From IMG/VR virus record IMGVR_UViG_3300023284_000449, positions 1 through 38,218 of that record: a stretch of 38,218 bases of DNA. One strand, 5' to 3'. Below are positions 14,449-36,789 of the stretch, piece by piece. A program made the translations under genes and the position numbers. Source of the stretch: a virus. Each line of letters begins with the position of its first letter. Position 1 is the first letter of the stretch. The notes beneath the pieces are model-generated. The model ran no database searches, was not told the DNA's origin, and worked only from the letters and a program-made list of their open reading frames with translations.

Positions 14449-15987
14449 TTATGTTAGGGTTACTTCTTTTTCTGGTTCTTCTATTATAGTCGTTCCATCC
14501 GGGTTTAATCCTGCTGCGATATTATCGTTCGCCTCTTCCGTTTCTTCAGCCAGTTTATCCATAGTTGCTTCCAACATTGCCTCAGCCTCTTCCTGAGAGA
14601 AATCTAAGAATCTTGTAAGATAATCCGCCGGGGCAACTATAGCATTTCCCCCACCCGCAACATACTTAGTAAGGGCTTCCGTCTTCTTGAGACCTACTGT
14701 TGCTTTTTCGTCGTTGGTAAGAGTATTCAGATCGGGCCATTTTACAAAATAACCTTCAGCGGGTTCCGGTAAAACTTTAATCTCAATTAGTCTATCGGTG
14801 AAAGGAACAATAATATGAGGAGTGATGTAATCGTTTTGTCTAAGGCTTAATCTCTTATTCCAATCTAATTCATCTTGGGCAGAAGATAGTTCACCACGTT
14901 CGCTACCCACAAATTTACGCTTAGGAATTCCCAACTTGATACAGATAGCTTCAAGATGAACATTAACATGAGCAGTAGGATCGCTTACAGCAGGGGCAAT
15001 AGATTTAACATTCATTCCGTTTAGAAACATCCATTGCTGCAATCCGTTCATCATATTTTCCATCGCATCTCGCATATCCTCTGATTGCGTAGACGATAAT
15101 TCTACATTCGCTCCTAATTGAGGAATTGTTTCGACGAATAATTTTAAGACCGCATTTCTCCAATACGTTTCCCCATCTGCACCATAAATTTTTCTTAGGT
15201 CATAGATTCTGTTGTAGACTGGTCTTAACCGGGGAACACCGAATATCTCATCATTCATTAAATTATCGGCAACATGAATAACCCTTGACCAATGAACTTC
15301 ACTTTCCTTAATAGTTTCTTGAGTGCGGGATAAACCCAAACTATCAGAATCTGTAAACCCCACATTGTATCTTAGAGGTTGCCCGAATCTGGGATTTGTT
15401 TCGTCGTGTTCTATATCGATAATATCGACTTTCGATCTGTCTAAAGGTCGTAAGAAAATCAATTTATTATTTTCGCTGGGAACTACAGGCTCTTGCATAG
15501 CCTTATTATCACTGATGCCCAACAACAATATCCCATAATCCCCGATCCCACTTAGAATATCTATCCGTAACAGAAATTCCCAAATCTGATTACCTTCAAC
15601 ATCCTTAAACCAACTTGGTCCCTTAATCCCCTTTGAAAGATTCTCGAAAGCCAATTCAAATTCTGTTACATCTTCTACTTCTTCCGATTCAAATACTTCA
15701 GGGTTGATCTGCCAACTCTCTTTAGGTAATACTTCTACAACCCTATTTGCGATTGCTTCCCGGTTATAAAGCCTGCTGTAATCGTCTACTCTAATTTCAT
15801 GGGTTTTGGGATAACCACATTCATCGTCAATATCCCTTCTCGGATCAAGGATACCTTCCAATAATTCATTTTGACTTCTCGTAGACTCGTTAAGTACAAC
15901 CCCTAAATCGGTAAATCCCTTTCTCATATTGGCAACGATCTCTTGGAATTCTTTATCGCTGACATTCCCATTGGTTTTTTTATCCAT
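14449..15987 (-). CDS. portal protein (DUF1073-like)
   Basis: This 512-residue protein has portal-type features: YSRLYNREAIANRVVEVLPK and SWQINPEVF at the N-terminus. GIGDYGILLLGI, the LRPLDRSKVDIIDIEHDE segment, and VHWSRVIHVADNL in the middle follow. The LVGSERGELSSAQDELDWNKR-like region further on (FVGSERGELSSAQDE) is typical of the DUF1073/anti-CBASS-related portal group. The length is normal. It forms the DNA entry ring at one capsid vertex and sits beside the minor head gene. Confidence in portal is high. Confidence 0.85.
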   Translation of the reverse strand: MDKKTNGNVSDKEFQEIVANMRKGFTDLGVVLNESTRSQNELLEGILDPRRDIDDECGYPKTHEIRVDDYSRLYNREAIANRVVEVLPKESWQINPEVFESEEVEDVTEFELAFENLSKGIKGPSWFKDVEGNQIWEFLLRIDILSGIGDYGILLLGISDNKAMQEPVVPSENNKLIFLRPLDRSKVDIIDIEHDETNPRFGQPLRYNVGFTDSDSLGLSRTQETIKESEVHWSRVIHVADNLMNDEIFGVPRLRPVYNRIYDLRKIYGADGETYWRNAVLKLFVETIPQLGANVELSSTQSEDMRDAMENMMNGLQQWMFLNGMNVKSIAPAVSDPTAHVNVHLEAICIKLGIPKRKFVGSERGELSSAQDELDWNKRLSLRQNDYITPHIIVPFTDRLIEIKVLPEPAEGYFVKWPDLNTLTNDEKATVGLKKTEALTKYVAGGGNAIVAPADYLTRFLDFSQEEAEAMLEATMDKLAEETEEANDNIAAGLNPDGTTIIEEPEKEVTLT

Positions 15988-16489: not shown

Positions 16490-17482
16490 TCACACCCTCA
16501 TCACTCCGATATTACTCAGATTTCGTTTCTTACCTCGAATTCCATAGACAACCAATACTACGGCATCCATCTCATCTGGGCTATGTCCTATTCTTTCTAT
16601 TAAAGTTTTCACTCTGGGTTTATTTTCACTGTTGGGATTAGGATTTGATTTTGGGGGTAATATCAATCTTCCCTCCCCATCATATAATTTCGGGATTTTA
16701 GACAATTGGTATCTAAGAGATTTCTTTCCTTTTGTTTGTTTATCCAACAACTCTTTAGGTAGTCCAAACACTTGACTATTTATTTCTTTATTATTTTCAC
16801 TGATTTCAGCTTTGGGGTCAATTGCCCGAGAAAGTAATCCACACATTTCCGCCCTACGATTTTTGTAAATATAACTTTCCTCAGCATGCTCCTTACGATC
16901 TACAAGAGTCTTCATCGCCGTTGTTTTTTCCATTTTAACAGACTCGCCAAAATGGACTGCCCGAACATTATGTCCATTAGCCCTCAATCTATCTGCATGT
17001 TGTTTACCCCCACCCCCGGTATCAAAATAAATATTTCGACCATCAAGACCCCATTTAGTAATATACTCCATACACATACCAAATATATCGTTTGTATTGG
17101 GGGTCTTTCTACTAACCAATTCAATCAATCCTAAACGGTCAGCAGCAGCAATACAGGTATTATCTCCCCCCTCAGCAGGATCGATTCCTAAATGAGTTGG
17201 TCTTCGATTTGGGTTTAGCTTATCCCCCACCTTCGCGGCATTATCAAGCCAAGTTGGGGGATACAATAACAGTCCCGGTCCAACATACCATTCCGCATCC
17301 AGTCCTACACATTGCATAATCTCATCATAAGTTTCCCTCTGCATCATGTAATCTTGGTAACTGAGTACACCGGGAACCAGAATTTTATGACTGACTTTCT
17401 TTCCTACTTTAAGTTCTGCTTCAGCATACCTTACGTTGGGAGAATCTTCAGCTTTGATCTTGATTACTTTTCTGTAATACAT
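16490..17482 (-). CDS. terL: large terminase, nuclease half
   Basis: This 330-residue protein carries only the RNase H-fold nuclease domain of a large terminase. It has GIDPAEGGDNT with Asp101, IYFDTGGGGKQHADRLR with Asp154, and DEMDAVVLVV with Asp303/Asp306 near the C-terminus, the expected acidic triad for DNA cleavage in packaging. The beginning (MYYRKVIKIKAEDSPNVRYA) is what normally follows the ATPase domain inside one polypeptide. The codon before the ATG is the stop of the 142-residue gene in the same frame, and the upstream ribosome site is weak. The matching ATPase half is 1.75 kb upstream at 19232-19825. Confidence 0.85.
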   Translation of the reverse strand: MYYRKVIKIKAEDSPNVRYAEAELKVGKKVSHKILVPGVLSYQDYMMQRETYDEIMQCVGLDAEWYVGPGLLLYPPTWLDNAAKVGDKLNPNRRPTHLGIDPAEGGDNTCIAAADRLGLIELVSRKTPNTNDIFGMCMEYITKWGLDGRNIYFDTGGGGKQHADRLRANGHNVRAVHFGESVKMEKTTAMKTLVDRKEHAEESYIYKNRRAEMCGLLSRAIDPKAEISENNKEINSQVFGLPKELLDKQTKGKKSLRYQLSKIPKLYDGEGRLILPPKSNPNPNSENKPRVKTLIERIGHSPDEMDAVVLVVYGIRGKKRNLSNIGVMRV

Positions 17483-17911
17483 TTATTTACTGGGAACCCA
17501 TAACTTCAAAAAGTTTGTAATTAGGTATGCCCTAGAAGGATAAAAACCTCTTTTAAATCTTGAGTCTAATTGCAATAATTGTGGATTTTTATTTATCAAC
17601 TCTTCCAGTGAGGTATAAAAAAATATCTTCTCTGTACGAAGATTTTTACTACAAATTTTTAACCCAAACATACCTAAAGGAACTTTATCCATCCAATGAA
17701 GTTGAGGAAAAGCTCTCCTGTGCCATTGTCGATAGTTTTTAATCTTGGGAAATTCAAATTTCCAAGGGATATAGGGATTAAAAAATGTAGCTGTAGGATA
17801 TTTTTCCCTTAATTTATATCGGGCGTGTTTCTTTGAAGAGGCTAAGACAAAAGTAGATTTAACTTTACCATCGGAGAATTTATAATTTGAAAACCACGCT
17901 TGTTTGGTCAC
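17483..17911 (-). CDS. 142-residue protein inserted between terminase halves
   Basis: The start is a GTG at 17911 without a strong ribosome site; the frame ends with a TAA immediately before the terminase nuclease ATG, in the same frame. The protein is basic and aromatic-rich (FEFPKIKNYRQWHRRAFPQL, then RAYLITNFLKLWVPSK). I see no HNH, GIY-YIG or LAGLIDADG endonuclease motif. It might be the accessory protein of an inserted element, but no family is recognised. Confidence 0.5.
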   Translation of the reverse strand: MTKQAWFSNYKFSDGKVKSTFVLASSKKHARYKLREKYPTATFFNPYIPWKFEFPKIKNYRQWHRRAFPQLHWMDKVPLGMFGLKICSKNLRTEKIFFYTSLEELINKNPQLLQLDSRFKRGFYPSRAYLITNFLKLWVPSK

Positions 17912-17937
17912 TTTTTCTCGCCCTAACCTCTCTAAAA

Positions 17938-18117
17938 AGTCTCCCGATGTTCGACGTTCGGATTACCGTAACAGAGCCAACCAAACAAAACACCGGGAGA
18001 ACTGTATGGCGGGGGATGTTTGACGGAATGATCGTGATTTCAAATCCCGGTTTCCGAATTAAAAACATCCCCCAAAATTGTACGATTGGGGCAGGACACT
18101 ACACCCTGTTATTCCCC
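17938..18117. other. strongly structured non-coding segment between terminase halves
   Basis: Three inverted repeats follow one another. TCTCCCG (17940-17946) pairs with CGGGAGA (17994-18000). An 11-base perfect repeat GGGGGATGTTT (18011-18021) pairs with AAACATCCCCC (18063-18073) and encloses a CGGAA/TTCCG pair. GGGGCAGG (18088-18095) pairs with CCTG plus CCCC (18105-18117) around a bulge. On the minus strand the last arm is followed by CTTTTTAG, like an intrinsic terminator. The base composition is GC-richer than the flanks. This could be a structured RNA or the core of an inserted element. No known RNA family was matched. Confidence 0.5.
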
Positions 18118-18153
18118 TTTCGCGTGAGCCTGAGACCATCCCTGTACGTTTTC

Positions 18154-18276
18154 TAGTCTTCCGCTACTCACCCTTAAAAGTTTGATATATTGTATGTACT
18201 CCCATTGGTATAATGCTAAGTATAGCTATCCAATAAAAAAAATCTGCCCACATTGTTTTAGTCCTCCGCTACTCAC
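18154..18276. repeat. two 18-base direct repeats carrying ribosome sites
   Basis: TAGTCTTCCGCTACTCAC at 18154-18171 and TAGTCCTCCGCTACTCAC at 18259-18276 differ at one base. On the minus strand each reads GTGAGTAGCGGA(A/G)GACTA and holds a GGA(A/G)G ribosome site. They bracket the 29-residue peptide gene. They probably arose by local duplication of a stop-plus-ribosome-site unit. Confidence 0.6.
18164..18253 (-). CDS. 29-residue membrane peptide
   Basis: GGAGG lies nine bases before an ATG at 18253. The frame encodes MWADFFYWIAILSIIPMGVH and ends KGE before TAG. It is almost wholly hydrophobic and would span a membrane once. The stop and following bases form a copy of a repeat that also surrounds its own ribosome site. 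A good start signal argues for translation, but a chance frame cannot be excluded at this length. Confidence 0.4.
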   Translation of the reverse strand: MWADFFYWIAILSIIPMGVHTIYQTFKGE

Positions 18277-18564
18277 TATCAGTTTTGATTTTCCTTTCTC
18301 ATAGATTTGTTTAATTTCTTTTGCATTAAGGCACTTCGAATAACCAATTGCGTCGGCACCTTTCCCATTGACATAAATTCTACAGTTTCCTTTACCATCA
18401 ACTGTTTCAGCAACATGAACCCAATCACTCGTTCCATTAAATTCGATGCAGTTGATTATTTCTTTGCGGCTATTAGTCCATACCTTGTGTTCAGACTTCA
18501 ACTTCCCAATAATAGCCGCCAATGGGGTTAGGAATATCGAGCTTAGTAGTGTTCTACGTTTCAT
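18226..18564 (-). CDS. exported small LamG-like remnant protein
   Basis: This 112-residue protein starts MKRRTLLSSIFLTPLAAIIG, a signal peptide with a twin-arginine-like start. The mature part reads FNGTSDWVHVAETVDGKGNC, RIYVNGKGADAIGYSKCLNA, then EIKQIYEKGK. This is the strand and helix pattern at the end of a LamG domain, with most of the domain deleted. It overlaps the zinc protein gene by 11 bases. It may be a minimised lectin or a decaying copy. The last 15 codons read through the downstream repeat and may not be ancestral. Confidence 0.5.
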   Translation of the reverse strand: MKRRTLLSSIFLTPLAAIIGKLKSEHKVWTNSRKEIINCIEFNGTSDWVHVAETVDGKGNCRIYVNGKGADAIGYSKCLNAKEIKQIYEKGKSKLIVSSGGLKQCGQIFFIG

Positions 18565-18820
18565 ATTCTTCTCCTAATACATGTAATCCATTTGGATGTT
18601 TTTCAATAGTTTCATTCCAATCAACATACACTACGTTACCAGTGTGATCAATTAAAGGAATACATCGTGAGTTACAAGCATCGCATCCCCTAGGTCCATA
18701 TTCTGTTTCGTATTCCCCATGTCCCCCACATAAATCGCATTCGGGGATATCCCCTATAAACTTTACTACTTCTTCAGTATTGTCAGGATTTGACTTATAC
18801 GTAATCGATTCATATGTCAT
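18554..18820 (-). CDS. DnaJ-type zinc-finger-like small protein
   Basis: This 88-residue protein contains CDLCGGHGEYETEYGPRGCD followed by ACNSRC. The paired C-x-x-C motifs with Gly resemble one and a half repeats of a DnaJ/RNase-type zinc finger. The rest is acidic. It lies in the insert between the terminase halves. Metal binding is likely; partners are unknown. Confidence 0.55.
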   Translation of the reverse strand: MTYESITYKSNPDNTEEVVKFIGDIPECDLCGGHGEYETEYGPRGCDACNSRCIPLIDHTGNVVYVDWNETIEKHPNGLHVLGEEYET

Positions 18821-18821
18821 T

Positions 18822-19022
18822 TTAATCCTCCCGTAAATGTTCTCGGCACTTCTTATATTTTACCCCACTTCCACAAGGGCAGGGTTTGTTACGATCTATT
18901 CTTTGGATTCCCCTGAGTTGTTTTGTTGGGGGAGTTGTAGGCTTTAACCATTTGAAAGGATCACTAACAAGTTTCTTTGGTCTTTCGTTTGTTCTTTCCT
19001 TGTTAATTGGTTTTTGCCCCAT
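18822..19022 (-). CDS. SEC-C motif protein
   Basis: This 66-residue protein ends with RNKPCPCGSGVKYKKCREHL, the SEC-C zinc motif (C-x-C-…-C-x-x-C/H) found at the C-terminus of SecA and many small proteins. The N-terminal part is basic and Pro-rich. It overlaps the next gene by 20 bases. SEC-C motifs bind zinc and usually mediate protein contacts. Its role between terminase halves is unknown. Confidence 0.65.
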   Translation of the reverse strand: MGQKPINKERTNERPKKLVSDPFKWLKPTTPPTKQLRGIQRIDRNKPCPCGSGVKYKKCREHLRED

Positions 19023-19254
19023 CCTGTTTCTCCAAATAATTTTGTGCCTTATCTAACAATTTTTGATCGGACTCTTCCTTTTCCAATCGTTCTTTTAAGT
19101 CTTCTAAAAGAAGAACCATACCAGAAGCTAGAAAAATAAGCATAGCATCGGTTTTATTAGGTTTTTCAGGAGTTTTTATCTCATTTCTAACATAATTTAT
19201 GAAACCGATTTCGTGAGTAATATCTTCTATTTTACGTCGTAAGGATTTTGTCAC
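19003..19254 (-). CDS. helical protein overlapping the terminase ATPase end
   Basis: I place the start at GTG 19254, nine bases after AAGGAG, giving 83 residues; the frame also extends upstream inside the terminase gene. The product is helical (TKSLRRKIEDITHEIGFINY), with one hydrophobic stretch (AMLIFLASGMVLLLEDL) and a charged coiled-coil end. Its first codons overlap the last codons of the terminase ATPase half in another frame, so the split terminase and this gene share their boundary. No family is recognised. Confidence 0.5.
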   Translation of the reverse strand: MTKSLRRKIEDITHEIGFINYVRNEIKTPEKPNKTDAMLIFLASGMVLLLEDLKERLEKEESDQKLLDKAQNYLEKQDGAKTN

Positions 19255-19825
19255 CTTCTTCAACTCCTTTTCTAAAGAAATTTGAAGTCTCCCAACAATT
19301 ACCAATAATCAATCTTCGGTGAGACCAAGTTAAACAACTCTCGTAAGTAATATCGCCGATTGCAGATGCTTCATCGAATACAACTAACGTGGTTGGTCCC
19401 CCATCTTCCAGCTTCGGTAGATGCCTACCCAATAATCCTTCACCCTGTTGGACTACTTGTCCAATAATTTCACACTTGGGAACGAAGGTTCCATCATTAT
19501 AAATTTGCCTGATGTGCATGTGGTTGACTTGGATCGGAAGGGGGTATTTAGAATTTTGAATAAACCAATTCATCTCCCCCCAAAGTACATCCCTCAATTG
19601 TCTCTCACCTACACTGGTTGTAACAACTCTCGCAGGTCGTCTACTACAAAAGAACCAAAGAACAATAAATGCCGAAATAAAATCCTTACCTAAAGCGTTA
19701 CCAGCAGGTACTAGAGTTTCTATATTATCTCTCACCGAATAGATAATCTCTTTCTGTTCTTTATAGAGATTAACTTGAGGCCAGAACTTTTTCTGGAAGA
19801 CTAAGGGATCGATTGGTTGTTTCAT
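19232..19825 (-). CDS. terL: large terminase, ATPase half
   Basis: The ATG at 19825 overlaps the preceding TGA (TGATG); the frame could begin at 19837. The 197-residue product (or 201) contains only the packaging ATPase domain. In the 201-residue numbering it has a Walker A-like PAGNALGKDF at 44-53, Walker B LVVFDE at 151-156 and a coupling motif IIGN at 177-180. The final DKILTT is unlike terminases, where the sequence would pass to YRKVIKIKA at once. That continuation is found at 16490-17482. The two genes together make a near-complete motor-nuclease. Confidence 0.83.
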   Translation of the reverse strand: MKQPIDPLVFQKKFWPQVNLYKEQKEIIYSVRDNIETLVPAGNALGKDFISAFIVLWFFCSRRPARVVTTSVGERQLRDVLWGEMNWFIQNSKYPLPIQVNHMHIRQIYNDGTFVPKCEIIGQVVQQGEGLLGRHLPKLEDGGPTTLVVFDEASAIGDITYESCLTWSHRRLIIGNCWETSNFFRKGVEEGDKILTT

Positions 19826-20031
19826 CAAGTACACCATCTTGCAAAATCTAAATCATCTGTAGACATAATTAATGCTGCCATATCTTGAATCTCTTTGGGG
19901 ACATCTTGACTGACACTAAGCCAGTTAATAAATCTACCTCTTAGCCCATCTTCTTCAGAATGAGCAGCCTCATCATCTCCTTGCATTCGTTCGATTTTCT
20001 CAACTCTGGTTTTGATATATTCTAAGTCCAT
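19825..20031 (-). CDS. small helical protein upstream of terminase
   Basis: This 68-residue protein (YIKTRVEKIERMQGDDEAAH, then GRFINWLSVSQDVPKEIQDM) is acidic and helical. Its stop overlaps the ATPase ATG. The ribosome site belongs to a GAGGAGTAAATT unit repeated before other genes. Proteins of this look often precede terminase genes in phages, but I cannot name a family. Confidence 0.5.
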   Translation of the reverse strand: MDLEYIKTRVEKIERMQGDDEAAHSEEDGLRGRFINWLSVSQDVPKEIQDMAALIMSTDDLDFARWCT

Positions 20032-24239: not shown

Positions 24240-24272
24240 TTCATTCTCCTCAAGATTCAAAATAAAAGTAAG

Positions 24273-24354
24273 TGGGGGATACAGGACTCGAACCTGTTTC
24301 TTTCCATTCTAAATCTACGATCTGGAATGCTTTACACCATTAAGCTATTCCCCC
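24273..24354 (-). tRNA. tRNA-like gene with oversized anticodon loop
   Basis: On the minus strand GGGGGAA (24354-24348) pairs with ATCCCCC (24280-24274), with one mismatch at the inner pair. GCTT and AAGC form the D stem with GG in its loop, and ACAGG TTCGAGT CCTGT forms a perfect T arm. The anticodon stem TTCCA/TGGAA encloses 16 bases (GATCGTAGATTTAGAA) instead of 7. The normal middle length is 23 bases; here it is 31. No CCA is encoded. The loop does not permit a safe anticodon, so the amino acid is not called. It may be a degenerate tRNA, an unusual processed tRNA, or a decoy. Confidence 0.65.
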
Positions 24355-31490: not shown

Positions 31491-31518
31491 AGCCCCCAGA
31501 AATGGGGGTTATTTTTTT
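31491..31518 (+). terminator. rho-independent terminator of the plus-strand operon
   Basis: CCCCC (31493-31497) pairs with GGGGG (31504-31508) around AGAAAT, with two more weak pairs outside, and is followed by TTA and seven T residues. It ends the plus-strand operon where it meets the convergent methyltransferase gene. Confidence 0.75.
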
Positions 31519-32534
31519 GCCTCGTTGCCCCAGCTAGAAAATCCTTTGATCTTTCTTCTTGAGAACATATCCAATCTCTTGCCTTTGGTTACTCTTCTGA
31601 CCATATCGTAAAACTCTTCCGGCTTCTCGCTATGCTTTCCTCTCTTCCATGAATTGCAGGTTTTGAAATCTTTGGTTGTGGTGAATTTTGGAGTTCCTTT
31701 CCTACAGTACAAAATAAATTCTGAGTTGTAGTAAGGCATTCCAATTGGCTGCATTCCTTTGGATTTATGCCAAGTGAAAGTACAGACATATTTGAATCCC
31801 CAACTTGAGGATAATCGAAATGCCATTGGAAGGAATTTTTGGGTAGTCCATAACCACAAATGGCAATCGTCTCCTGCTGGAATTGTGAGAGTCTCCAACT
31901 CATCTTCGGTCATTGTTGGATAATCGAACCCTAAATCTCCCGGTCTTTGTTCCATCTCAATTCGGTTCATATCCCAAGGGGGATCGATCACTAGCACGTC
32001 GTAGGAGCCGCTAGGAGCCTCTATTTGGACTTCTCCGATCCTTTCCCTACGAATCTTCTTCCCTTCCCTTAGAATCGATTGCTGGGTGAAATCCCAGCCC
32101 TTATCGTTGCATTCTTTGCGATGTTTAGCAAACCATTTTGGATCATCCTCAAGCACCTCCGATGCGAGTTGTAATCGTTGGGATTGGTTAGCATTTATGT
32201 CCAAATCCTCCAATGAAGCTGGCTCATTAACTATTGCACCTTGCAATACTTTTGACGATTTTTTGGTTGGTCTTCGATTTTGATTTATTGTTCCATTCTT
32301 CTGACCTTCTTTAATCAATTGCCCCGCCCTTGCTTCCGATAATGCCGCAATTTCCGCTGCCGAGTTTAGGGACTCTCTGGCATCTCCTCTGGCTTTCATA
32401 TAGCTCTTGATAGCCGTTGCTTTATCCCTGATCTCAAGAACAGATTTAAGATCAGTCATTGCCGATAATTGTTGCCTGCATTGCTCTAAAACAATCAATT
32501 CTTTTGGTTGGTCTGGTTTAGATATCTTAGGCAT
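31509..32534 (-). CDS. MT-A70 family adenine methyltransferase
   Basis: I start at the ATG at 32534, which overlaps the end of the upstream Cys-rich gene; the frame could begin at GTG 32552. The 341-residue product has an N-terminal helical ParB-like or regulatory part (SLNSAAEIAALSEARAGQLI, then NANQSQRLQLASEVLEDDPK). A catalytic MT-A70 domain follows with YDVLVIDPPWDM near 184-195; DPPW is the signature for N6-adenine methylation using S-adenosylmethionine. LWLWTTQKFLPMAFR and EFILYCRKGTPKF follow. The substrate could be phage DNA, protecting it from restriction. The N-terminus resembles phage and plasmid versions of this enzyme. Confidence 0.83.
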   Translation of the reverse strand: MPKISKPDQPKELIVLEQCRQQLSAMTDLKSVLEIRDKATAIKSYMKARGDARESLNSAAEIAALSEARAGQLIKEGQKNGTINQNRRPTKKSSKVLQGAIVNEPASLEDLDINANQSQRLQLASEVLEDDPKWFAKHRKECNDKGWDFTQQSILREGKKIRRERIGEVQIEAPSGSYDVLVIDPPWDMNRIEMEQRPGDLGFDYPTMTEDELETLTIPAGDDCHLWLWTTQKFLPMAFRLSSSWGFKYVCTFTWHKSKGMQPIGMPYYNSEFILYCRKGTPKFTTTKDFKTCNSWKRGKHSEKPEEFYDMVRRVTKGKRLDMFSRRKIKGFSSWGNEAKK

Positions 32535-32787
32535 TATTTTTGTATTCTCCACAGGCTTGAGCTTTGTCTAACATAGTTGGATAAATTGCTCTGGCTTGAG
32601 TTCCTACTCCTGTTATCTTTTGGGGAATCCCATGATCCAACATCGTAATCTCTCCAGTTTGAACGAATCCGACAACTGCCGGGGGAAATCGTTTTCACAT
32701 CCCACTGTCAGATAACGTATCATTTTTTATTGGATTCCTAAACCAGAATCTACAACTCTCACAATACTGAACCCTAAAATCTGTCAT
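32527..32787 (-). pseudogene. Cys-rich small gene with in-frame TGA at a cysteine position
   Basis: The ATG at 32787 overlaps the DNA polymerase stop (ATGA). The frame reads MTDFRVQYCESCRFWFRNPI, then DTLSDSGM, TGA (32697-32695), KRFPPAVVGFVQTGE, and ends ACGEYKNNA before TAA at 32529-32527. Ignoring the TGA gives 85 residues, and the end overlaps the methyltransferase ATG by 8 bases. The pattern C-x-x-C-R-F-W … G-x-[C]-K-R-F-P-P … C-G-E is that of a small phage zinc protein; the TGA takes the third cysteine. One substitution (TGT or TGC to TGA) explains it. Readthrough or selenocysteine would need proof. Confidence 0.6.
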
Positions 32788-34766
32788 ACTGCTAATCCTT
32801 CCTTCCAGTTTTGAGGATGATAATCAATTCCGCAGGTTAAAGGAACTCCAATACAATCTCCCATAGACTCCATTATACTTTTAATCTTTCTAACTTTCGG
32901 TAGGTTTCCTAGATTCTTTCTGAGGGGAAAATCTATAACGAGTTCGTCATGCACGTTCATAACAATATGGACATCCAAAGTTAGAGAATCTAAATACTCT
33001 TGAACCTTAATCATCGCTCGGAACATAACCCAACAGGCAGTTCCTTGGACGTGATAAGAGAAAGGAATTGTAGGTGAGATACTTCCCCAATCTGTTCTGG
33101 AACAATAAAGAGGATATCCCCTTTCCGGGTCGATCTCCTTATCTGGTATCGTCTCTACATAACCTTTTTGGTTTGCCATATTGATAAAGTGATCGTTTAA
33201 TTTAGTCCGGTTTTGTAATTTGTTAAGAATCTTAATTTGTGCTCCATCTACATGAGCAGCCCTATCTGCTGTCCCACTTTCAGGTTGTGCCCCATACTGA
33301 TCTGCAAAGTTAAAGTTCTTAGTCCAACTATACCAAGTTGATTTGTATTTCTCTTTCGCTTTTAATAATCCTTCAGGATCGTTCTTATCCCATTTTTCGG
33401 GATGTAATAAATCGAAAATTAAAAGATGATAACTTCCAAAATAAGGAGCCTCATCGGGTTTCTCAAAAATCTCAATCATCATTTCTTCGCCAGCTTCGTA
33501 AGCAGGAATTCTCAACTCGATATTGTCATAATCCAAAGCCCACCATTCTCTATCCTTCGAAGGGCCGAAACAATATCTAAGATTGTAATCCCCATCCTTA
33601 CTAATCTGTTGATTGTTCGGGTTGCTGCTAGACCATCTTAAAGTGTTCGTTCCAGTAGGATTGGATTGACAATTCAAAACCCAATCTATCTGGTATTTCT
33701 GATAAGACTCCAAGAAAGTTAAACAGGTTTTCTGTTTTCGATAGTCTCTAAGATTCTTAACAAAATGGTAGGGTTTATTTTTAGGGTCCAGCGTCAACAG
33801 CCACATTTCTATCTGATATTTATTTATGCTGGGGTTTCCCTTTTTTGTTTTTACATCTGAAGGCAAATTAAAGGTTTCAAACAGCAGTTTCTTAACCGCG
33901 TTACTTGTTCCATTTTTCGGTAGTTTTTCTAACTCATCTCCTCCGATATTGAGGCAGACCTTTTCACATTGGTTGGAACCCTCAGTAAACCGATTTTGTA
34001 ATTCCTTGAATCTCCCTTTATCAATCGTTATTCCGCAATTTTGCATAGAATCAACAATCGGTAATAGTTTAATTCTCTCCCGGTAAATCTTCTCTAACTT
34101 CTTTTCCTTAATTCTCTTTTGATGGTTAAGAAAAATCGCTATCGTTGCTGCTGAGTCTGTATTGGCATATTCTGAAGTTACGGTCCACCATCTGTGATCC
34201 TTTGGATAATTCCTTTCTTTAGTAATTGCTCTGGGCAACCAACAATCAAATTTCCAAACCTTCTCTTCATTCTTTTTCGTAGTTGCCTTAGCACTAGGCA
34301 TACACGAAAAACCTTCTTTAGCAATCATCCAATCGGGATATTCTTTCTTGGCAATTCTTCTAGCCTCTTTAACAGCTTCTTCCATTTCATCTTCGTAAGG
34401 TTGAAGATCAATTCCCAAAGTTCTTAGAGTTAATGCGGTTAGATTCTTCGGTAAGTTACTTTCCAAGAGATGCGAAGAATACAAAGTGTCGTCTATCTTT
34501 GACCAATCCCATTTAAGTTTCGGGAGAATAAGAGAAATTGCTTTGATGTCGAAAGTGGCGTTTTGAAAAACCAGATTTTCTTCTTCTTGAATAACCTTAT
34601 CAATCTCTTTTAGATCAGAATAAATCAACAAAGGTTTTCGGGTTAATGGGTCTACATCCCATTCCCAAAATTGTTGATTCTGTTCGTGATCGCAAACCGT
34701 AACGAGAAATGGAAGTGCTCCATGATGGAAATCAATTCCCGTGGTTTCTGAATCAATTGCAAGCAT
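32784..34766 (-). CDS. DNA polymerase I-like (family A)
   Basis: The ATG at 34766 has GGAG five bases upstream and follows the stop of the gene before it; a longer frame to 34790 is less likely. The 660-residue product has a 3'-5' exonuclease domain (MLAIDSETTGIDFHHGALPF, then NATFDIKAISL and ANTDSAATIAIF). A polymerase domain follows with motif A WALDYDNIELR, motif B-like KNFNFADQYGAQ and motif C NVHDELVI. The usual DYSQIELR is DYDNIELR here. No 5' nuclease domain is present. It is the likely replicative polymerase of the phage. Confidence 0.88.
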   Translation of the reverse strand: MLAIDSETTGIDFHHGALPFLVTVCDHEQNQQFWEWDVDPLTRKPLLIYSDLKEIDKVIQEEENLVFQNATFDIKAISLILPKLKWDWSKIDDTLYSSHLLESNLPKNLTALTLRTLGIDLQPYEDEMEEAVKEARRIAKKEYPDWMIAKEGFSCMPSAKATTKKNEEKVWKFDCWLPRAITKERNYPKDHRWWTVTSEYANTDSAATIAIFLNHQKRIKEKKLEKIYRERIKLLPIVDSMQNCGITIDKGRFKELQNRFTEGSNQCEKVCLNIGGDELEKLPKNGTSNAVKKLLFETFNLPSDVKTKKGNPSINKYQIEMWLLTLDPKNKPYHFVKNLRDYRKQKTCLTFLESYQKYQIDWVLNCQSNPTGTNTLRWSSSNPNNQQISKDGDYNLRYCFGPSKDREWWALDYDNIELRIPAYEAGEEMMIEIFEKPDEAPYFGSYHLLIFDLLHPEKWDKNDPEGLLKAKEKYKSTWYSWTKNFNFADQYGAQPESGTADRAAHVDGAQIKILNKLQNRTKLNDHFINMANQKGYVETIPDKEIDPERGYPLYCSRTDWGSISPTIPFSYHVQGTACWVMFRAMIKVQEYLDSLTLDVHIVMNVHDELVIDFPLRKNLGNLPKVRKIKSIMESMGDCIGVPLTCGIDYHPQNWKEGLAV

Positions 34767-34768
34767 CC

Positions 34769-35050
34769 TTACTCCGTAAACATATGCCAAACAAATGGAT
34801 CTTGCTGAAAAGTAGCTATATGCTTTCCATCAAAATTAACGGGAATTGGATGACCCGTACCGAAGATTCTAAATTTTTGTTTGTCTCCCATTAACCTAGA
34901 AGGATCAGAAATTTCGCCTACGTCCACCATTGCCCAAAGACAAGGTTGATTACCTTGGCATTCTATTTTTAAGATAGTAGAAGTTTTGGGAAAATCAATT
35001 TCAACAAAATCCCCAATCTCGAATTCATATTTGTAGATTCTTCTGTCCAT
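34769..35050 (-). CDS. conserved phage protein (DUF7352-like)
   Basis: This 93-residue beta-rich protein has the conserved strings FEIGDFVEIDFPKTSTILKI, LWAMVDVGE, FRIFGTGHPIP and HIATFQQDPFVWHMF. I recall this combination as a widespread phage protein of unknown function near polymerase genes. It uses the repeated GAGGAGTAAATT start unit. The family label is from memory. Confidence 0.65.
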   Translation of the reverse strand: MDRRIYKYEFEIGDFVEIDFPKTSTILKIECQGNQPCLWAMVDVGEISDPSRLMGDKQKFRIFGTGHPIPVNFDGKHIATFQQDPFVWHMFTE

Positions 35051-36600: not shown

Positions 36601-36789
36601 TCATTCTTCTATTTTACCCTTTTTTCCTTCCCTTTTTATTTCGTTATAAATTTCTTCCCGATGTACTGGGATTTCTTTGGGGGCTTCAATTCCTAAACGA
36701 ACTTTGTCCCCCCTCACTTCAACAACCATAATTTTGATATTGTTGTTAATAATTATGGATTCATTCTTGTGTCGAGTCAAAACAAGCAT
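36601..36789 (-). CDS. csrA: CsrA-like translational regulator
   Basis: This 62-residue protein is a clear CsrA: MLVLTRHKNESIIINNNIKI, then EVRGDKVRLGIEAPKEIPVH and REEIYNEIKREG. Residues of the RNA-binding edge (L4, R6 and the R-E-E-I segment) are kept. AAGGAG lies seven bases before the ATG. CsrA dimers bind A/U-NGGA sites, often over ribosome sites, to block or stabilise mRNA. A phage copy could re-route host metabolism or time its own late genes. It lies directly after the Sak4-like gene. Confidence 0.9.
   Translation of the reverse strand: MLVLTRHKNESIIINNNIKIMVVEVRGDKVRLGIEAPKEIPVHREEIYNEIKREGKKGKIEE

Follow-up and report, generated by a model that had tools for sequence, protein, structure and literature searches.

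Low-level readthrough of UGA is general in bacteria, and in most selenoprotein families the UGA codon stands at a cysteine position. The accompanying hairpin is described by a published loose model of the bacterial SECIS element (bSECIS), which we use in the form quoted in PMC13188914. The window analysed here, 38,218 bases long, is a virus record from IMG/VR, and a single gene of this virus was identified as carrying an in-gene TGA (Table 1). This TGA is very probably a nonsense mutation (or a contig error) in a small four-cysteine phage gene, leaving an inactive or recently inactivated copy.

Table 1. Positions of the small gene, its neighbours and other features of the virus record.
Feature	Position	Strand	Evidence or remark
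Small four-cysteine protein frame	32527..32787 (read 32787→32527)	(-)	Translation; 86 codons including the TGA, stop TAA
In-frame TGA, codon 31	32695..32697 (read 32697-32695)	(-)	Translation and alignments; third conserved Cys site in relatives
ATGA overlap, polymerase stop and small-gene start	32784..32787	(-)	
Small-gene end AATGCCTAA, overlapping the methyltransferase ATG at 32534	32527..32534	(-)	
Hairpin AACGA/TCGTT plus CCGGC/GTCGG around AGTT	32662..32693	(-)	-8.2 kcal/mol
Upstream neighbour, DNA polymerase family A	32784..34790	(-)	PF00476 E=1.1e-29; phrog_17 E=1.5e-61
Downstream neighbour, MT-A70-like DNA methyltransferase	31509..32534	(-)	PF05063 E=1.6e-18; phrog_359 E=3.5e-41
Large terminase, apparently split	16490-19837	(-)	Parts separated by small ORFs over about 1.75 kb
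Terminase ATPase part	19232-19837	(-)	Matches annotated terminases
Terminase nuclease part	16490-17482	(-)	phrog_2, Terminase_6C
Portal protein	14449-15987	(-)	Best phage match in haloarchaeal tailed viruses, 31% identity, E=1e-41
tRNA-Tyr	24272-24354	(-)	Anticodon GTA; sole tRNA of the virus
CsrA homologue	36601-36789	(-)	

The small gene is tightly embedded between its neighbours. As an earlier note on this sequence had described, it overlaps both of them, through ATGA (32787-32784) on one side and through AATGCCTAA and the ATG at 32534 on the other, and GGAAGGAAGGA 5' of its start is a good ribosome-binding site. Minus-strand translation from 32787 to 32527 gives MTDFRVQYCESCRFWFRNPIKNDTLSDSGM before the TGA and KRFPPAVVGFVQTGEITMLDHGIPQKITGVGTQARAIYPTMLDKAQACGEYKNNA between the TGA and the terminal stop, the latter part beginning with KRFPPAVVGF and ending with QACGEYKNNA. 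Elsewhere in the record, an intron or a homing-element insertion possibly splits the large terminase; no intron was found there by Rfam.

We built a family profile from 32 relatives, leaving out the window protein, and scored the frame against it with X at the TGA. The whole frame reached 38.7 bits (E=1.6e-10), the part after the TGA 20.3 and the part before it 12.5, against 8.9 bits for the best of 4000 shuffles; because the relatives were gathered via the KRFPP stretch, the profile favours the half after the TGA. The C-x2-C pair was absent from the search pattern, and CGE entered as a later filter only. The homology on the two sides exceeds chance. The family signature consists of an N-terminal C-x2-C, then G-x-C-[KR]-R-x-P-P, and C-G-E near the C-terminus, and the window frame contains every one of these elements save the third cysteine, which is the TGA. 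Two distant IMG/VR relatives have C-x2-C, GMCKRFPP and CGE in common with it. The frame is a single gene, TGA notwithstanding, and the two-sided family match bears out the earlier note's reading of a frame intact on either side of the TGA.

Which residue do the relatives carry at this site? The IMG/VR collection was scanned with matched patterns differing at one base, each requiring K-[RS]-F-P-P. The TGC pattern gave 59 matches, 43 of which were family members with the upstream C-x2-C, and the TGT pattern gave 22, including 8 members. None of the 18 matches to the TGA pattern was a member: the only one flagged automatically (L011) lies in a Ser/Thr-rich stretch without CGE and was rejected. 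Cysteine was likewise retained in all 27 copies found in Planctomycetota genomes, among them a Pirellulaceae MAG and a Phycisphaerae MAG, with no internal stop in any; two copies flagged as having stops inside proved to carry natural C-terminal stops. Thus, cysteine is indeed the residue expected at the TGA, as proposed, in 51 IMG/VR relatives and 27 genomic copies. Neither a polymerase search nor an exact pattern of the local sequence in which the third base was left free returned a near-identical record of the virus, whose relatives in the searched data are distant ones only. In a relative from another virus (L056, 7855-7877), Tyr replaces the second conserved cysteine (KCETYRWW), by its sequence a separate case within the family in which a predicted ligand has been lost.

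The family is a widespread, uncharacterised group of four-cysteine small phage proteins. Among 12 aligned members, 11 match phrog_15838, itself a small uncharacterised phage protein (best E=3.3e-6), and the same four-cysteine layout is found in these relatives. The window protein differs from phrog_15838 in matching weakly another PHROG, phrog_6679 (E=0.022), in a longer insert that separates cysteines three and four, and in the TGA. A search of named-phage proteins gave only marginal matches; the best of these, Gordonia phage gp13, lacks the motif and is a different protein.

With its four conserved cysteines, the protein would be expected to adopt a small fold that binds a metal or a cluster. 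Weak matches point to small [4Fe-4S] proteins of the HiPIP type: PF01355 (Pfam HIPIP) matches 6 of the 12 members (best 3.5e-4), the score given for one member being 18.3 of 22 bits, under the Pfam cut-off, and other [4Fe-4S] profiles, NF033716 (one member) and PF08201 (two members), bring in BssC/TutF and the HPDL small subunit. HiPIP, the HPDL small subunit and BssC-TutF have the pattern C-x2-C ... G-x-C-x2-F-P ... C in common with the family, a likeness that serves as a lead and not as membership. The sole match in a PDB sequence search was a HiPIP (1hpi, E=0.17, not significant), the top match in a fold search was 2y8n_B (E=4.6, not significant), and a fold search with a model of the window protein found nothing; the family model (mean pLDDT 78) resembles uncharacterised phage proteins in BFVD (best E=0.0029, probability 1.00). 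The missing cysteine had been called a zinc ligand; no test favours zinc and the weak profile matches are to [4Fe-4S] proteins, so that nothing more specific than metal or cluster binding by four cysteines can safely be stated.

How is the TGA read? A code in which TGA is reassigned can be rejected on stop usage, since TGA ends 13 of the 50 genes of the virus, in agreement with the earlier note. Alternatively, near-cognate tRNAs (Trp, or Cys or Arg by mis-decoding) could read through the UGA and yield a minor full-length protein, as the intact, family-like frame beyond the TGA and the UGA-A stop context would allow. However, the TGA is not conserved, no suppressor tRNA was recognised in the virus record, and inserting Trp where a ligand is needed would leave the site defective, and we regard such readthrough as highly unlikely.

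A selenoprotein would require that SelB and tRNA-Sec of the host, directed by the hairpin beyond the UGA, decode this codon as Sec; the product would be full-length, and Sec would be its third ligand. One candidate host phylum may be suited to this: of 99 Planctomycetota genomes sampled, 68 have a SelA match that exceeds the curated cut-off, and selenocysteine use may be widespread in the phylum. The link to Planctomycetota comes from the CsrA homologue of the virus, which shares up to 65% identity with Planctomycetota CsrA and 60% with the best phage copy, a likeness that is suggestive only; the presence of relatives of the four-cysteine gene in some Planctomycetota genomes is a weak hint, and the capsid protein of the virus had no homologue in 392 genomes of the phylum. 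On the other side, neither Sec genes nor a tRNA-Sec were recognised in the virus record, with Rfam included in the tRNA search. The site also resembles a structural ligand alongside three other cysteines and not a typical redox motif such as UxxC/CxxU. Finally, the in-frame UGA does align with the cysteine of the homologues, yet a second UGA-bearing homologue was not found among the TGA-pattern matches (0 TGA-bearing relatives versus 51 with TGY).

The remaining argument for selenocysteine is the hairpin. It is present as the earlier note had drawn it, AACGA-6nt-CCGGC-AGTT-GTCGG-AT-TCGTT, with its loop 18-21 nt past the TGA, and it fits the bSECIS model as quoted in PMC13188914: (i) the loop is AGUU, whose second base is G and whose next base is U; (ii) the spacer from UGA to loop is 17 nt and the upper stem has 5 bp; and (iii) the MFE is -8.9 over 41 nt, where the quoted model wants a value below -7.5. 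In contrast to these features, the 71 nt around the hairpin are less stable than shuffled sequences (z=+1.40), and a loose hairpin test succeeds after 47% of the virus's codons. The full model as quoted is passed after 6.3% of codons, 4.7% of TGY codons and 2 of the 13 genuine TGA stops of the virus. This codon background of 6% seemed mildly interesting until the downstream peptide was recoded synonymously with the virus's own codon usage: 34% of the recodings pass the quoted model and 19% match the stability of the hairpin, which is thus expected from the peptide alone. The Cys-encoding relatives, for their part, have a model-passing hairpin in just 4 of 41 distinct sequences, and spacing and loop differ in each. 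Homologues with a cysteine but no conserved hairpin were among the outcomes that the earlier note had named as refuting its idea, and this is the picture that the relatives give. With Rfam at a permissive threshold, the gene gave solely one lncRNA match, implausible, below threshold and on the opposite strand.

Because recodings, cysteine relatives and ordinary TGA stops also pass, the hairpin is uninformative: no bSECIS stem-loop stands out beyond these three backgrounds. We read it here as incidental to the coding sequence of KRFPPAVVGF, and it carries almost no evidential weight for a SECIS element. The earlier note's use of it as such evidence is not supported, since the model is passed no oftener than the peptide sequence predicts, and we consider selenocysteine at this site extremely improbable. 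With no TGA-bearing relatives and no enrichment of the hairpin, the simple nonsense mutation that the note had placed first among its explanations is upheld.

What would the nonsense mutation have done? One altered base, whether in the virus itself or in its assembled contig, would have made a TGA of the codon for the third conserved cysteine. The gene allows 38 possible single-base nonsense changes, of which 4 fall on its four cysteines (about 1 in 10), so that landing on a cysteine is unremarkable; combined with a model-passing hairpin (6% of codons, 34% of recodings), it amounts to a mild coincidence. Translation as written would yield a 30-residue fragment bearing the first C-x2-C pair only. 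Such a fragment would be unable to hold the predicted four-ligand metal site, and the gene would therefore be inactive or recently inactivated. We infer that the TGA terminates translation and that the fragment is non-functional. The change would appear to be recent, because the part after the TGA still matches the family, and the truncated protein is probably dispensable. By inference only, the TGA may also make translational coupling to the methyltransferase gene that follows less effective.

In its present state the locus is an ordinary interrupted phage gene, chiefly useful as a warning: a UGA that replaces a conserved cysteine and a hairpin fitting a loose SECIS model can come about together by chance, because about one in three synonymous spellings of KRFPPAVVGF yields a hairpin of this kind. 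Were Sec to be shown, this would make a notable case of a phage selenoprotein in which Sec serves as a ligand to a metal. Compared with bacterial selenoproteins that have a bSECIS, the gene differs in that a second Sec-bearing member is absent, the hairpin is neither enriched nor conserved, and the typical redox motif is missing; what it has in common with them is a UGA at a cysteine position, followed by a hairpin that fits the loose model.
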